Of a stretch of DNA of 64,000 bases, positions 28,648 through 35,742 are shown one piece after another (position 1 is the stretch's first letter; the number at the start of each line of letters is the position of its first letter). The DNA is from Promethearchaeota archaeon. Its GTDB lineage: Archaea > Asgardarchaeota > Lokiarchaeia > Sigyniarchaeales > SOKP01. The DNA lies in assembly GCA_016839705.1 (NCBI GenBank), contig JAEOTR010000079.1, forward strand, positions 1 through 64,000, given 5' to 3'. The notes under the pieces are model-generated. The model was not told the origin of the DNA and ran no database searches. It saw only the letters and a list, made by a program, of their open reading frames with translations. A program made the position numbers and the translations under genes.

Positions 28648-29760
28648 TTAGTAGAAATATTTTTGTAATTGATATTTTCTTCTACAATCGCATTCAACTT
28701 CCACGTTTTCTAATGAAGCTAATTCCTGAGAGAAGACAAAATGTTGAAGCCTATTTTGAGCGGTTTTCTCACATTCTCTTTTTAAACAATTATGAATCCC
28801 TCTTTTTGTTCCAGCTCCCGACGGATCAGAAATAACTCTTACTGTTGCTAGATCCTTTTGAGTTAGGGATTTTCTTAAGACTTTAAAAAGTGAATGAAAC
28901 CAAGGTGGGCGATATTTATTTTTGTACCATAAATATTCTGCAAGAGTTCCTCGCTGAATATTTAAAGGATTAATGGATATAGTATTGATTTTTAAATCAA
29001 TTAACTTTCTAATAGAATTTATACAATCATCGATTGCTCCTGCTTCGTTGAGGAAGGGAGGTTTAAGCAATAGATAAGCTTTTAAACCTACCGTATTTTC
29101 TTTACAAATTTGTAATATATTTTTAAAATCCTCAAATCTCATGCCTTTATTTATGTAAATATTTCTGAAATAATCATTAACAGTCTCAATTCCAATCGCA
29201 ACTTCAGTATATTTTCCTTTTAGTTTTTCTTTAAGATCTTTAAGTTTTTCTGCGTCTATATACTCTAAACGACTTTCTATCGTGAATTCTTTAATATTTT
29301 CAATAGTTACAACCTTTTCATAGATATATTGCCTAGTTTCTTCAGATATTTCATTTTCATCGAAAAAGCTACCGGAATTGAATATTTTTAAAGAGTACTT
29401 CTCATCATCCTCTGAGATTTCATTAATTTTATTGTTTAACACATAATCTATTTGACTTTGTAATTGTTTTTGATTTACTTCTTCAATATTAGCATCTTGA
29501 ATGTAACCACACATTGTACATCCACCAGTCTCACCTAAAGACCAACTACACCCCTTTGTTCTTAGAATAATAGTTAATGTTTTCCCAACTTCACGGATAA
29601 GTCTGTCCTTTTTAATCCAAAAACTAACAGGGCGGTTCAAATCGGTTCCACTAATTCGTTTCCTCTTTTTCAAGGCTTTTTGCCTGATAGATTTTATTCT
29701 CTCAGAGAATAATTGTTGATAATTATTAGAACTGCTATTTTTTCTCACTAATTTTAACAA
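28648..29760 (-). CDS. raSEA: archaeosine biosynthesis radical SAM protein RaSEA
   Basis: A 370-aa radical SAM enzyme. Near residue 69 it has TKGCSWSLGETGGCTMCGY, a C-x9-C-x2-C cluster motif of the Elp3/RaSEA type. The TIM-barrel region follows (GSFFDENEISEETRQYIYEK, VAIGIETVNDYFRN, LKAYLLLKPPFLNEAG). C-terminal Cys residues are in CDCRR. With ArcS it converts the lysine adduct of preQ0 in tRNA position 15 into archaeosine. It starts at TTG 29760, inside the end of arcS (26-base overlap), so the two are translationally coupled. Confidence 0.9.
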   Translation of the reverse strand: MLKLVRKNSSSNNYQQLFSERIKSIRQKALKKRKRISGTDLNRPVSFWIKKDRLIREVGKTLTIILRTKGCSWSLGETGGCTMCGYIQDANIEEVNQKQLQSQIDYVLNNKINEISEDDEKYSLKIFNSGSFFDENEISEETRQYIYEKVVTIENIKEFTIESRLEYIDAEKLKDLKEKLKGKYTEVAIGIETVNDYFRNIYINKGMRFEDFKNILQICKENTVGLKAYLLLKPPFLNEAGAIDDCINSIRKLIDLKINTISINPLNIQRGTLAEYLWYKNKYRPPWFHSLFKVLRKSLTQKDLATVRVISDPSGAGTKRGIHNCLKRECEKTAQNRLQHFVFSQELASLENVEVECDCRRKYQLQKYFY

Positions 29761-31825
29761 CTCTCCCTGTTTTAGAATTTTTAATAAAATTTGAGCCGAC
29801 AGTTAGCGTACCAGTTCCAATTATCTCCTTTTTTTCTTTATCAATAATGATGACACAATTATTAGAGATCAGATCTGGACTAAATTCTAAGATGCCTTGT
29901 CGAAATAGATTATTACCTCGAATATTTTCCCCATCAAAAACGATTAGATTAGAATCAATAGAAAATGGTAATTGAACCATTCTTTCCAATCCGTGTATCG
30001 TTAAAATTATTTGACCTGATGAAGTACTAAATACTCCTAATTTTTTCTTAGTTTTTAAATCTATCAAGTCTATTTGTGAACTAGAATGAATTTTGATGGG
30101 ATATAGTTCGTTTTTAATAATATTGCGTCCTGATTCCTGACCAAATTGATAATCTAAAATTTTTACAAATTTTCTAATCCATTTGTTAGATAAATAACCA
30201 CTTTCAGGTATTTTTTTTAAAGGTTTAAAATCCTTTATATGCTGCTCTACTATTGACTTGAGAGATTTAAGAGATTCTTTAGAAGTCACTTTTTCATCAA
30301 CATTTGTAAAGTAGAATTTATGCGGTAAGTTAGAATTGACTTTTTCAGCAATTTCACGATAATCACTCTCAAGATGACAAATTATCGGTATATTTTCATC
30401 ATATTTTGTCAGAATTTGGTATAACATACCTGCAGTAATTTCTTTTTCACTATCATCCCATTCTCCGGTAACAGATATATCATATAAATTAACGGGATAA
30501 ACGTTTTCTAGCTGTCTTGGAATAGCTCCAAGAGGTGATGTTAGAATAATTTCTTGAAAATCAGTGAACTCTGGAAACTTCCCAAGCACACTGTGAAAAA
30601 GTTTATGTGATTTTGAGAATGAATAAGGTTTCTTAGCTGAACAGGGTAGTAAAATAATCATAGTTGTCCAAGTCTCTGGTACAAAATTTCTAATCGTTCT
30701 TAACCTAAATTCACTAAAATCAGGTCTATAATATGAGGAAAGTCCTAGACATTTAATTTTTTTAACTTTTTGGGTGATTGGGGTTTCATACCGGATGGTA
30801 TCAAAATAATCTTTATCCAAAATTTTCAACATTGAAATTAAGGCTGTATCATCAAGAGATGACTTTTCGACAAATACTCTATAATCTTCATACCGTAGAT
30901 ATTGTTTGATTTTCATCATGTAATTATAGGCTGTTATTAGGTTATGTAAGCAGAGTAAATCTATCTTTTCACTAGAATATTTAGCATCAACTAGATTTTT
31001 TAAGTTTCCTTTACATACAATGCAAGAGCATGTCAAATATTTTACTTTATATATTGGAAGTAAATATTCTATTGTATCATATAAACTTTCTGCCGATAAG
31101 TATAGTAAAAAGGAGGTGTCAATTAGGTCTACCCCTAGGTAAACCAACATAGGAAAATATTTAGGAATTATTCTCCCAGATGCCATAATAACAATATTGT
31201 TATCCAACTGTGTTTTTATTTCGATAATAGTGGTTATAATCTTCCTAAAATTGCTAAAGTTATCAAATAAATCAACTAAATTGAGGATTTTTATGTTATC
31301 ATTTTCCTTAATTATTGGGAGATAAAGAGATATTAACTCTGAATAATCAAAAAGTCTAATTGATAAACCAAAACTAATTGTGGGATGAACTTTTAAAATT
31401 TTGACCACGTTAGTAAGATAATTTCTAATTTCACTCTGTGCAAATTCTCTCCCAATTGTCGCTGAGGGAATGTTAAAAGGTATTATCGATATTACATTAT
31501 CTTTTGTGAAAATCTCCTTATTTTTATTTAAAATCTCTTCATAATTTTCGAAGATCCCAGGATAGGAAAAAATAAATCCTGTATTTTTGAATTTTTCTCT
31601 AAGAAAACCTATTTTCAAGAAAATTTCTTTAGATATAACGAATAAGTCATGATTTTCAAATTCTTGTATGAAACTAAATTGCTTCATTAAGACATTTTTA
31701 ATTGGGATTATGACATTAGGTGTTCTTATATAGAGTTTCCTCTCTTTTGATAAATTAATCCTACCTATTCTTGAAAAACCTATTCTATTTTCCAACAGTT
31801 CAAAAAAATGACTCATTCTCTTCAA
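29735..31825 (-). CDS. arcS: archaeosine synthase subunit ArcS (TGT-like, PUA domain)
   Basis: A 696-aa protein. The N-terminal half has a tRNA-guanine transglycosylase-like barrel with a zinc site CSCIVC plus LLCLHNL. The middle carries LPCSAKKPYSFSKSHKLF, the ArcS signature involved in attaching lysine to preQ0-tRNA. The last about 80 residues form a PUA RNA-binding domain (FSPDLISNNCVIIIDKEKKE, GTGTLTVGS). It acts on G15 of tRNA in the D-loop, where archaeosine stabilises the fold. It overlaps raSEA by 26 bases. Length is close to the family's. Confidence 0.9.
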   Translation of the reverse strand: MKRMSHFFELLENRIGFSRIGRINLSKERKLYIRTPNVIIPIKNVLMKQFSFIQEFENHDLFVISKEIFLKIGFLREKFKNTGFIFSYPGIFENYEEILNKNKEIFTKDNVISIIPFNIPSATIGREFAQSEIRNYLTNVVKILKVHPTISFGLSIRLFDYSELISLYLPIIKENDNIKILNLVDLFDNFSNFRKIITTIIEIKTQLDNNIVIMASGRIIPKYFPMLVYLGVDLIDTSFLLYLSAESLYDTIEYLLPIYKVKYLTCSCIVCKGNLKNLVDAKYSSEKIDLLCLHNLITAYNYMMKIKQYLRYEDYRVFVEKSSLDDTALISMLKILDKDYFDTIRYETPITQKVKKIKCLGLSSYYRPDFSEFRLRTIRNFVPETWTTMIILLPCSAKKPYSFSKSHKLFHSVLGKFPEFTDFQEIILTSPLGAIPRQLENVYPVNLYDISVTGEWDDSEKEITAGMLYQILTKYDENIPIICHLESDYREIAEKVNSNLPHKFYFTNVDEKVTSKESLKSLKSIVEQHIKDFKPLKKIPESGYLSNKWIRKFVKILDYQFGQESGRNIIKNELYPIKIHSSSQIDLIDLKTKKKLGVFSTSSGQIILTIHGLERMVQLPFSIDSNLIVFDGENIRGNNLFRQGILEFSPDLISNNCVIIIDKEKKEIIGTGTLTVGSNFIKNSKTGRVVKISEKK

Positions 31826-31969: not shown

Positions 31970-33268
31970 CTAAGAAATGATAAAATTTGTATAGGTTATT
32001 AGCTCATCCAATACAAAATTCGTATAAGTATCTTCAATTTCATCCGTATTATATAAATTCTTGATGAATTCGGCATAATTTTCGATTTCTCTTACCCTTA
32101 CAATAGCAAATAGTCCATATTGTTCGCCTATTCTAAATAAATCAGTAATACTCTTTTTCATAGCTAATCTAACCGCAATTTCATTATATTTTGAAGGATC
32201 TTTTGGCTTAATGCGAAGAAGAAATTTTCCCTTAAATCCCATTTTTTTCGGACTAAAATTCACAGTATAATTTAAGATAACACCCTCTGTTTCAAGCTTT
32301 TTAATTCTGTTATGAATAGTTGATTGGGAAATTTCTAACTCAAGTTGTTCTTTAAAAACTCTACTTATCTCATAGGTAGATATTGGTTTAAGTCCTTGAC
32401 TATCTCGTAATATTTTTAAAATGCTATAATCAATATTGTCTAATTCAAAATTTAAACCAATTTTTTTTTTTTTTAAATTAAAACCAGAATTATTTTTGAT
32501 TTCATTAATTTTGTTTATAACAAGTTCTGCTTCTGTTGCATTCTTTAAACCCTTCACAACCATTTTACCATTTGAGAAGATTATAATTGATATAGACAGA
32601 TTTTCAATCTTAATAACAATCCCAGGGAACCTCTCCGGATTATAATCAATAAATTCATTGTTTTGAGCAATTTGATACAAATCAATTCTTTCTGGAATAT
32701 TAATTTCTATATTTTCATTTTCATAGACCTGTTTTTCTTCGATTTTATCAATTAATCGATCTAAAAGTTTCTGAAGAAGAGCTTCTTCAATAGTCATTTT
32801 TGACTTCTTTAGACTAATCCCATTCGTTTTAAAAACCATGATAGTGTCAATTATTTGATATTTTTTAAAATATGATTTTGCCATTATTTTGTCAATAGTA
32901 TTTAATATCTGATAATATTCCTCAGGGGAATTGAAGATAAATAAGGCGAATAAAGAAAAGTCTCCAATTATTCCATCCAACATTCTTAACTGGGGAACTT
33001 CTAACAATTCTTTGACCAATTCAGGTTCTTTAGGGTTGGTTTTGATTTCAAGCATCACGTATTTCAGATTATTTGGATAAATACGTGGATTAATATTTAT
33101 AGTGAAATTGGTAATTATTTGTTGGTCTCTCAAGCCATCAAGCTTGTTTTGATAAGTTTGTCTTGTAAGTCCTACGGCACGAGAATTTCTTGATATAATA
33201 AATTTGGTTTTTCCACTTAAATTTTTAATATAACTTTGAGCTTCTAGCTTATTATTAGTGTTCTCCAT
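31970..33268 (-). CDS. regulator with Lrp/AsnC, TBP half-repeat and second Lrp/AsnC module
   Basis: A 432-aa protein with five parts. Residues 8-60 look like a helix-turn-helix (NSRAVGLTRQTYQNKLDGLR). Residues 65-148 are an Lrp-type ligand domain (KYVMLEIKTNPKEPELVKEL). Residues 183-258 match one half of TATA-binding protein, notably YNPERFPGIVIKIEN and IIFSNGKMVVKGLKNATEAE. Residues 275-335 form a second helix-turn-helix (ISQSTIHNRIKKLETEGVIL) and 345-425 a second ligand domain. The TBP-like part keeps the FPG and FSNGKMVV hallmarks. Lrp proteins set transcription of metabolic genes, and TBP binds promoter DNA or TFB. What the fusion binds is unknown. Confidence 0.8.
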   Translation of the reverse strand: MENTNNKLEAQSYIKNLSGKTKFIISRNSRAVGLTRQTYQNKLDGLRDQQIITNFTININPRIYPNNLKYVMLEIKTNPKEPELVKELLEVPQLRMLDGIIGDFSLFALFIFNSPEEYYQILNTIDKIMAKSYFKKYQIIDTIMVFKTNGISLKKSKMTIEEALLQKLLDRLIDKIEEKQVYENENIEINIPERIDLYQIAQNNEFIDYNPERFPGIVIKIENLSISIIIFSNGKMVVKGLKNATEAELVINKINEIKNNSGFNLKKKKIGLNFELDNIDYSILKILRDSQGLKPISTYEISRVFKEQLELEISQSTIHNRIKKLETEGVILNYTVNFSPKKMGFKGKFLLRIKPKDPSKYNEIAVRLAMKKSITDLFRIGEQYGLFAIVRVREIENYAEFIKNLYNTDEIEDTYTNFVLDELITYTNFIIS

Positions 33269-33405
33269 TTTCTTACAATTTTTCAGATTTTTTATTTGTT
33301 GTTAATCAAATGTTAAATTTCATTTATAAATATTTGCCCTTCACCAAAAAAAGCTTTATTAATTAATTAAAACTAATAATCTTAAAAATCAAAAAGTGAA
33401 TTCAA

Positions 33406-34674
33406 ATGGTAAATTTTAAAATTGCTGACGAAAATTTAGCAGAAAAAGGATTAGAAGCGTTATATGTTGCGGAAAACAAGATGCCGGTGACTGCTAAGGT
33501 TATTCGGGAGCGATTCGCAAAGGAAAAACCTTTGGAAGGCATAACTATTGCAGGATGCTTACATATAACTAAAGAAACTGCCAATCTAGCGCGAACCTTA
33601 AAAACTGGTGGTGCTGATGTTTGGTTATGTGGTAGTAATCCATTATCCACTCAAGACGATGTAGCTGCCGCTTTAGTAAAGGAAGATATCAATATTTTTG
33701 CATGGCACGGCAATACTGATGAAGAATTTTATTGGTGTATTCGTGAGTGTTTAAAAGCTAAACCTAATATCCTCATTGATGACGGGGCTGATATGATCGT
33801 TACAGCTCATAAGGAGTTTCCCGAATTAATAACTGATGGTGTAATCATAGGGTGTCAAGAAGAAACAACTACTGGTGTAAAGCGTTTTAAGGCAATGGAT
33901 GCAGCCGGAGATTTGAAAGTCCCTCTCTTCCCTGTAAATGATGCTCGATGTAAAAATCAGTTCGATAATGAGTTAGGAACCGGGCAAGGAATAGTGGCTG
34001 CAATCTATGGGATGCATGTGCTATTTGCCGGTAAGACCGTAGTAATTGCAGGTTATGGACATTGTTCTTCTGGTATGGCTTTAAGAGCTCGGGGATTGGG
34101 TGCTGATGTAATAGTGACTGAAATAGATCCGATTAAAGCTCTTCAAGCTAGATTTGCTGGTTTTCAGGTAATGCCAATTGAAAAAACACTCCCAATTGCT
34201 GACATAATCCTAACTGCTACAGGATGTAAGCATGTAATTCAACCATCAAAAGAGATGTTTGATAAACTAAAGGAAGGTGTTATCCTCGGTAATTTGGGTC
34301 ATTTTGACATTGAGATTCCCACTAAAGAATTGTATGAATATGCTAAGGAAATAAAACCTATCAGGCAGAATGTTGAAGAATTAATTTTTCCTGATGATAA
34401 AAGGATATATCTCCTAGCTAAAGGAAGATTAGCTAACCTGGTACTCTCTGAAGGACATCCTGCTGAAGTTATGGATATGTCATTCGGTCTTCAATCTTTA
34501 ATGTCCGAATTTATTGTCAAAAATAAAGATTTATTAAAACCAGGAATGGTTGATATACCTGTAGAGATAGATGACAGAGTAGGATTCCTAAAACTTCAAT
34601 CAATGGGTGTGGAAATAGATAAACTCAGTAAGGAGCAATATAATTATATCCACGGCTATGAAGAAGGAACCTAA
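33406..34674 (+). CDS. ahcY: S-adenosylhomocysteine hydrolase
   Basis: A 422-aa protein. It shows GITIAGCLHITKETANLART near residue 45, CGSNPLSTQDDVAAAL, and VNDARCKNQFDNELGTGQGI. The NAD site is VVIAGYGHCSSGMALRARG with the acidic partner VTEIDPIKA. It cleaves S-adenosylhomocysteine to adenosine and homocysteine, removing product inhibition from the many SAM-dependent methylations. The C-terminus ends near HGYEEGT, as in archaeal enzymes. AAAGTGA lies just before ATG 33406 and serves as ribosome-binding site. It is divergent from the Lrp/TBP-like regulator, with a 137-base shared promoter region. Confidence 0.95.
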   Translation: MVNFKIADENLAEKGLEALYVAENKMPVTAKVIRERFAKEKPLEGITIAGCLHITKETANLARTLKTGGADVWLCGSNPLSTQDDVAAALVKEDINIFAWHGNTDEEFYWCIRECLKAKPNILIDDGADMIVTAHKEFPELITDGVIIGCQEETTTGVKRFKAMDAAGDLKVPLFPVNDARCKNQFDNELGTGQGIVAAIYGMHVLFAGKTVVIAGYGHCSSGMALRARGLGADVIVTEIDPIKALQARFAGFQVMPIEKTLPIADIILTATGCKHVIQPSKEMFDKLKEGVILGNLGHFDIEIPTKELYEYAKEIKPIRQNVEELIFPDDKRIYLLAKGRLANLVLSEGHPAEVMDMSFGLQSLMSEFIVKNKDLLKPGMVDIPVEIDDRVGFLKLQSMGVEIDKLSKEQYNYIHGYEEGT

Positions 34675-34728: not shown

Positions 34729-35742
34729 TTAAGGGCTTAGAATGTCGTTTGGATTATTGATATCCCCATAAACCTCACGAGCTAAGTTTCTTAATCCTTT
34801 TAAACCAAAAGGTTCTTTTTCAAGTCTATTCGATTCCCAAATCTTTAAATTTTTAAATTCTTTTCGAATCTGTCCCACATAATTAAGTTGAATATTCCGT
34901 ACATTGCTACAAAACTCACATTCATCATGTTGCGGAGTAATTAAATTAATATGTACCCCATCAAGATTGATATATTTCTCCGTTAAGTCTCTGGCTCTTT
35001 TTATTTCTTCAAAACTTGGTTTTTCTGCTATTGTTACAAGCCGTAATGATCCAAAAGTATGGATTAACTCCGTTATTCTTTCCCCACGTTCTTCTAGATC
35101 TACCAACATCTTAAAAATTTCCTTCCCTAATTCTCGTCTTTTCTTAGGATCATCAAAAGGCTTTATAATATTTCTGAAAACTTTGGAAAATTTTCTTACA
35201 GCATCTTTAATTGAATTATAGAAATTCAAAGAATATTTTAATACAACTTTAACCTGATCTTCGGGTATTTCAAATAAAGCAACCATGTTTCCTGTTGGGG
35301 GGAAATCTGCTACAATTATGTCAAATTTTTGGGATTGTTGATTTTCAGCATCTAAAATTTCCTGAAAAAACATTGCATTTTTTAGTGCAAGTGGGATAGA
35401 ATCAGCCGTAAATGTAGTATCCATAAACTTCTCTATTTGAGGAATTAATCCTACTAAGGGCATTTCTCTCATTAATGCTTTCATCTTCGATATTAAATTT
35501 TTTGTGTATTTCTCAGCATATTTATGTGGATCTGGCTCAATTGCCCATAGGTTATCAGATATAAGGGTTAATTTATTCCCAATTTCAGAATTAAATAAAT
35601 CCGTTAGGTTATGAGCCATATCAAAGGAAATAAGAAGGATCTTTTTATCAGGGAGAAGATCTGATAAGACTACTGCTGTAGCTGCACTTATAGTGCTTTT
35701 GCCAACACCCCCTTTTCCCCCAAGTACAATAATTTTCTCCAA
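34729..35742 (-). CDS. Get3/ArsA-family ATPase
   Basis: A 337-aa protein starting at TTG 35742, with a deviant Walker A GGKGGVGKST at residues 8-17. The switch region FDMAHNLTDLF corresponds to DPAHSLSD in Get3/ArsA. The signature ADFPPTGN corresponds to DTAPTGHT. A C-x2-C pair (HDECEFC, near residue 271) matches the zinc-binding cysteines that hold the Get3 dimer. Get3 delivers tail-anchored membrane proteins; ArsA powers arsenite export. The CxxC and lack of tandem domains favour Get3. It is monocistronic. Confidence 0.85.
   Translation of the reverse strand: MEKIIVLGGKGGVGKSTISAATAVVLSDLLPDKKILLISFDMAHNLTDLFNSEIGNKLTLISDNLWAIEPDPHKYAEKYTKNLISKMKALMREMPLVGLIPQIEKFMDTTFTADSIPLALKNAMFFQEILDAENQQSQKFDIIVADFPPTGNMVALFEIPEDQVKVVLKYSLNFYNSIKDAVRKFSKVFRNIIKPFDDPKKRRELGKEIFKMLVDLEERGERITELIHTFGSLRLVTIAEKPSFEEIKRARDLTEKYINLDGVHINLITPQHDECEFCSNVRNIQLNYVGQIRKEFKNLKIWESNRLEKEPFGLKGLRNLAREVYGDINNPNDILSP

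Follow-up and report, generated by a model that had tools for sequence, protein, structure and literature searches.

The window, by which we mean the whole 64,000-nucleotide stretch of Lokiarchaeial DNA analysed here, carries an open reading frame for a protein with two Lrp/AsnC modules and a genuine TBP half-repeat in the linker between them, and this gene stands head-to-head with the gene of S-adenosylhomocysteine hydrolase (SAHH) (Table 1). The architecture had been proposed in a sequence-only reading of this DNA from the motifs YNPERFPGIVIKIEN and FSNGKMVVKGLKNATEAE, hallmarks of a TBP repeat, and our analysis confirms it: both motifs are present in the 432-residue product, the full frame searched against Pfam matches PF00352 over residues 187-257 with E 1.7e-16 and 60.3 bits (cut-off 22.9), residues 180-268 searched alone against PF00352 give E 1.1e-17 and 64 bits, and archaeal TBPs are matched by phmmer against the PDB at E 9e-20 and 2e-19. 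A chance TBP motif is ruled out by the strength of the PF00352 and PDB matches. The C-terminal module lies above the Pfam cut-offs for both AsnC_trans_reg and HTH_24; the N-terminal module, taken as a separate piece, falls below the Pfam cut-off (E 0.057), and profile-profile comparison shows it to be homologous to the C-terminal one (probability 97.7, E 2.4e-12).

An AlphaFold model built on a 43-sequence alignment (mean pLDDT 80) predicts the HTH and RAM topology alike for both Lrp modules, and the fusion thus has the HTH and RAM domains of Lrp/AsnC regulators in both halves, in the N-terminal one by profile-profile comparison and topology. For the middle segment the model predicts, with moderate confidence (pLDDT ~60-78), the order S1-H1-S2-S3-S4-S5-H2 of a TBP lobe. 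Foldseek brings up archaeal TBPs (E ~2e-7, probability 1.00) and Lrp proteins; the TM-scores of the TBP alignments are low because these alignments extend beyond the lobe, and we therefore base the assignment of the lobe on sequence and topology. A 110-codon insert would stay open by chance with P ~3e-5 at this base composition. An assembly artefact or a gene misjoin is ruled out by the 13 genomes in which the fusion lies within conserved flanks.

Table 1. Features of the regulator/SAHH locus (positions in the window) and of a second protein family with a TBP lobe (positions in its own loci)
Feature	Position	Strand	Basis
Lrp-TBP-Lrp fusion gene	31970..33268	-	432 aa + stop, ATG start; same architecture in 12 further genomes
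N-terminal Lrp module, residues 1-152 (HTH ~25-48, then RAM-like domain)	32813..33268	-	Profile-profile match, predicted topology
Variable linker, residues 159-186, missing from lobe-less orthologues	32711..32794	-	AlphaFold model, pLDDT ~55
TBP lobe of repeat-1 type, residues 187-262	32483..32710	-	Pfam, predicted fold, tree
Pfam TBP match inside the lobe, residues 187-257	32498-32710	-	PF00352
Phe214, stirrup intercalating Phe	32627..32629	-	Alignment; 13/13 fusions
Phe231, L5.1 Phe	32576..32578	-	Alignment; 10/13 fusions; L5.1 role PMC7221094
C-terminal Lrp/AsnC module, residues 276-428	31985..32443	-	Pfam
Divergent promoter region shared with SAHH, 137 bp between start codons	33269..33405	.	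Sequence
TATA-like element, probably of the regulator gene	33323..33330	-	Inferred from sequence
TTGCCCTTCACCAAAAA, candidate operator, part of the conserved block	33334..33350	+	Conserved in 18 clade members, with or without lobe
TATA-like element, probably of SAHH	33354..33372	+	Inferred from sequence; conserved
S-adenosylhomocysteine hydrolase (ahcY), head-to-head neighbour, likely target	33406..34674	+	TIGR00936, 515 bits (cut-off 498); conserved pairing
Second half-TBP family, genus g8	L174:1976-2926(-), L047:1312-2271(-), L227-L229, L231, L232		

Several known systems resemble the fusion in part. Archaeal Lrp/AsnC (feast/famine) regulators, such as Ptr2, LrpA and LysM, likewise combine HTH and RAM, but they have a single module and the TBP that they contact is a separate polypeptide, whereas the fusion unites two modules and a lobe in one chain. 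The best whole-chain Foldseek match is siroheme decarboxylase NirDL / AhbA-AhbB, also with two AsnC-fold units per chain. This identity is rejected by the NCBIfam models (20-22 bits against cut-offs of 125-140), and the fusion gene, unlike siroheme decarboxylases, is paired with SAHH. In the N-domain of RNase H3 one TBP lobe is joined to another domain as it is in the fusion, and a single TBP-fold lobe is able to bind a duplex (PMC4132731, PMC7221094); lobes of the RNase H3 type, however, are ancient, divergent and located on enzymes, while the fusion lobe was copied recently from a true TBP repeat and sits on a transcription regulator.

A search of 228 genomes of the phylum found the full architecture in 13, all within one Lokiarchaeia family of 65 genomes: eight belong to genus g1, that of the window's genome, which is counted among them, and five to four other genera. 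A scan of genome contigs with patterns taken from the Lrp part names the carriers as Lokiarchaeota or Lokiarchaeia MAGs from several isolate series. In about 50 orthologues without the lobe, ~310-390 residues long, the two Lrp modules are joined by a short linker, and in the five that are nearest to the fusions the N-terminal module is ~80% identical. On the tree of the Lrp part these five lobe-less relatives and the 13 fusions form one clade (bootstrap 100, SH-aLRT 99), where a minimum of three changes is interpreted as one gain and two losses. The lobe was gained once, in an ancestor within one family, and was lost later at least twice. A topology in which the 13 fusions make a clade of their own without losses is rejected (AU p 0.013).

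In a tree of 148 TBP lobes the fused lobes nest among the repeat-1 lobes of the family's canonical TBP. The alignment has 92 columns and the fusion branches are long, which leaves the precise branching point unsure, but the distinction between repeat 1 and repeat 2 is clear. The lobe was copied from repeat 1 of the native TBP of these organisms, and sequence, predicted fold and stirrup Phe are common to both. It differs from TBP in that a single lobe is present per chain (13/13 fusions) instead of the two of a saddle, without the central TATA contacts and inside a gene-specific regulator. Repeat 2 and a divergent second TBP were considered as sources and are rejected by the same lobe tree. Both kinds of TBP are encoded in the window's genome, the canonical one as a 253-residue open frame and the divergent one with 199 residues (G000:C63:7101-7631; L003, L005), relatives of the latter being present in most genomes of the genus. 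A 65-residue open fragment of TBP repeat 2 at L177:916-1113(+) (G111:C2) is probably a piece of a TBP pseudogene.

The association with SAHH has a longer history. Regulator and SAHH gene are head-to-head in all 59 loci with sufficient contig, the window included, whether the regulator is fused or unfused, and the pairing spans the same genus, other families of the class and phylum-level Asgard relatives; it is older than the lobe. Within the spacer a block at 33326-33350 is conserved in all 18 members of the clade, and the spacer is unchanged in kind between the 13 fused and the five lobe-less forms. The core of the block has a single exact match in the genome, at the SAHH promoter, which fits a local regulator, and a regulon search of the genome with the block gave one-mismatch matches near the control count. 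Because the neighbourhood is conserved in 59 loci, the regulator very probably controls the SAHH gene and itself. The divergent SAHH gene, the repeat-1 origin and the loss of the lobe from some orthologues had no place in the sequence-only reading, whose description of the domain order stands.

Other genes accompany the pair. Archaeosine genes adjoin the locus at 28648-31825 on the minus strand (RaSEA with 338 bits, above its cut-off, and an ArcS-like protein below its own) and are kept with it in many relatives, and a Get3/TRC40/ArsA-type ATPase lies near SAHH at 34729-35742 on the minus strand, likewise in many relatives. In genomes G117 and G103 SAHH appears as two ORFs (L052:2704-4004(-), L074:1427-2742(+)), a frameshift-like split that is possibly a sequencing error.

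It would be logical to place the lobe in the context of this promoter, and we tentatively suggest, with a probability of about 0.4, that an old two-module Asgard Lrp regulator of SAHH and of itself uses the repeat-1 lobe as an accessory clamp at the TATA region. The protein represents, in Lokiarchaeia, an old Asgard type of Lrp regulator with two HTH-RAM modules per chain; it most likely binds the shared promoter and regulates both SAHH and its own gene, with a methyl-cycle metabolite as the probable ligand. A copy of repeat 1 of the organism's own TBP was inserted into the inter-module linker in one family ancestor. The Lrp modules may then occupy the conserved block, as a presumed operator between the back-to-back TATA-like elements, and the lobe, tethered by the linker, would be positioned beside a TATA element, where it may touch DNA by the stirrup Phe and basic residues and, as a putative clamp, strengthen binding or block TBP. 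Archaeal Lrp regulators do act near the promoter alongside TBP-TFB: Ptr2 touches TBP directly when it activates, and repression by LrpA works through the exclusion of RNA polymerase (PMC2995911).

Residues of the lobe bear on this proposal. In the window the stirrup Phe and the L5.1 Phe, which make the DNA wedge, are both present (F214 and F231); we take them to be the equivalents of F99 and F116 of yeast TBP, and the places of R105, K120, Asn69, Val71 and Thr124 in the lobe are likewise our assignments by yeast TBP numbering. The stirrup FP is invariant in the fusions and FPG occurs in 12 of 13; a basic residue is found at the R105 equivalent in 12/13 and at the K120 equivalent in 13/13. Together with the L5.1 Phe, kept in ten fusions, these residues appear to make the clamp the most likely role. 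At the Asn69 place, by comparison, Asn is retained in one fusion and lost in 12/13 (Tyr in the window), Val is lost at the Val71 place in S1, which is the strand at the lobe-lobe border of TBP, and at the Thr124 place in S5 Thr is found in 6/13 and lost in 7/13 (Lys in the window). Since the Asn, often the Thr, and the first Glu of the acidic pair that contacts TFB are missing, a saddle centred on TATA in the usual way, or the usual contact with TFB, seems less likely than an accessory clamp; the lobe may still wedge into a minor groove, line it or touch another partner. Against a clamp, the lobe is dispensable, because no fewer than two losses left the promoter unchanged; its pN/pS is raised, its central TATA contacts are gone and three fusions have lost the L5.1 Phe.

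A rival reading makes the lobe a passenger: a chance duplication, inserted once, which keeps a fold and which the flexible linker tolerates, but which would serve no particular function and would now be disappearing. Such a history agrees with the losses of the lobe, with the erosion of its central DNA contacts, with a promoter identical in kind with and without it, with its presence in only 13 of the 65 genomes of the family, and with its rate of evolution: computed over all fusion pairs with a bootstrap interval, pN/pS is 0.55 (95% 0.45-0.65) in the lobe, roughly three- to fourfold the values of the Lrp modules (0.14 and 0.19), and inside the lobe it rises from 0.45 in the stirrup-to-S5 part to 0.74 in helix H2. 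The interval, however, stays short of 1 and the lobe is thus constrained, though weakly; a passenger would also have to account for the invariant stirrup and for a reading frame that is open in 13/13 fusions and persists across several diverged genera. The lobe is fast-evolving yet under purifying selection, and we hold the passenger to be rather unlikely.

We regard it as improbable that the lobe works through protein contact, as a mimic of repeat 1 or as a partner of TBP, by which the regulator would bring the basal machinery to the SAHH promoter or titrate it there. Its descent from repeat 1 and the stirrup kept in 13/13 are in line with this, and Ptr2 is an established case of an Lrp protein that touches TBP directly (PMC2995911). 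The L5.1 Phe and the acidic pair C.L3.2/C.L3.4, the latter for TFB contact, are TBP signatures (PMC7221094), and the pair is absent here: the window has N210 and E212, and among the 13 fusions C.L3.2 is Asn, Ser or Asp, never Glu, while C.L3.4 is mostly Glu and acidic in 9/13. This pattern resembles an ordinary repeat 1, the acidic pair belonging to repeat 2, and the TFB-contacting half-saddle considered in the sequence-only reading is not supported. For repeat 1 of TBP we know of no archaeal partner.

Protein contact is also favoured by a lobe of the same kind on a second, unrelated protein of sister genomes. This protein of ~320 residues occurs in seven genomes of genus g8 and ends in a repeat-1-like lobe, which has lost the same Asn in the two members checked. 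Its N-terminal part is found without the lobe in other genomes, yielded no family in a Pfam search and is poorly predicted (mean pLDDT 52), whereas the fold of the TBP part is predicted well. An AbrB-like identity, guessed for the N-terminal part, was not supported. That one family has two such carriers suggests that the TBP lobe is a reusable part there. We may even think of a single TBP repeat as a portable module, for binding promoters or for contacting the machinery, on gene-specific regulators such as these two unrelated Lokiarchaeial proteins; one polypeptide would then recognise its operator, sense a metabolite and exert control at the level of TATA/TBP, though this wider idea is doubtful.

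A full saddle, in which two chains would join their lobes into a TBP-like DNA-bending structure as had been imagined for the dimer, is very improbable, for although archaeal TBP is a tandem of two such lobes and Lrp proteins make dimers and higher oligomers (PMC2995911), S1 is variable and has lost its Asn and Val contacts, the S5 Thr is lost in about half of the fusions and both lobes would be repeat 1.

The component families are all known, and their combination is apparently undescribed: in agreement with the sequence-only reading, no description of an Lrp-TBP fusion was found in a search of 5.39 million open-access papers. A common view derives TBP from a single lobe that was duplicated and fused, and the Lrp-TBP-Lrp protein lets one ask directly what half of a true TBP does alone; close lobe-less orthologues at the same promoter provide a comparison that isolates the effect of the lobe. 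The regulator and SAHH are a very well conserved regulator-target pair in Asgard archaea, and the fusion shows that, among the archaea most closely related to eukaryotes, parts of the basal machinery can become attached to gene-specific regulators.
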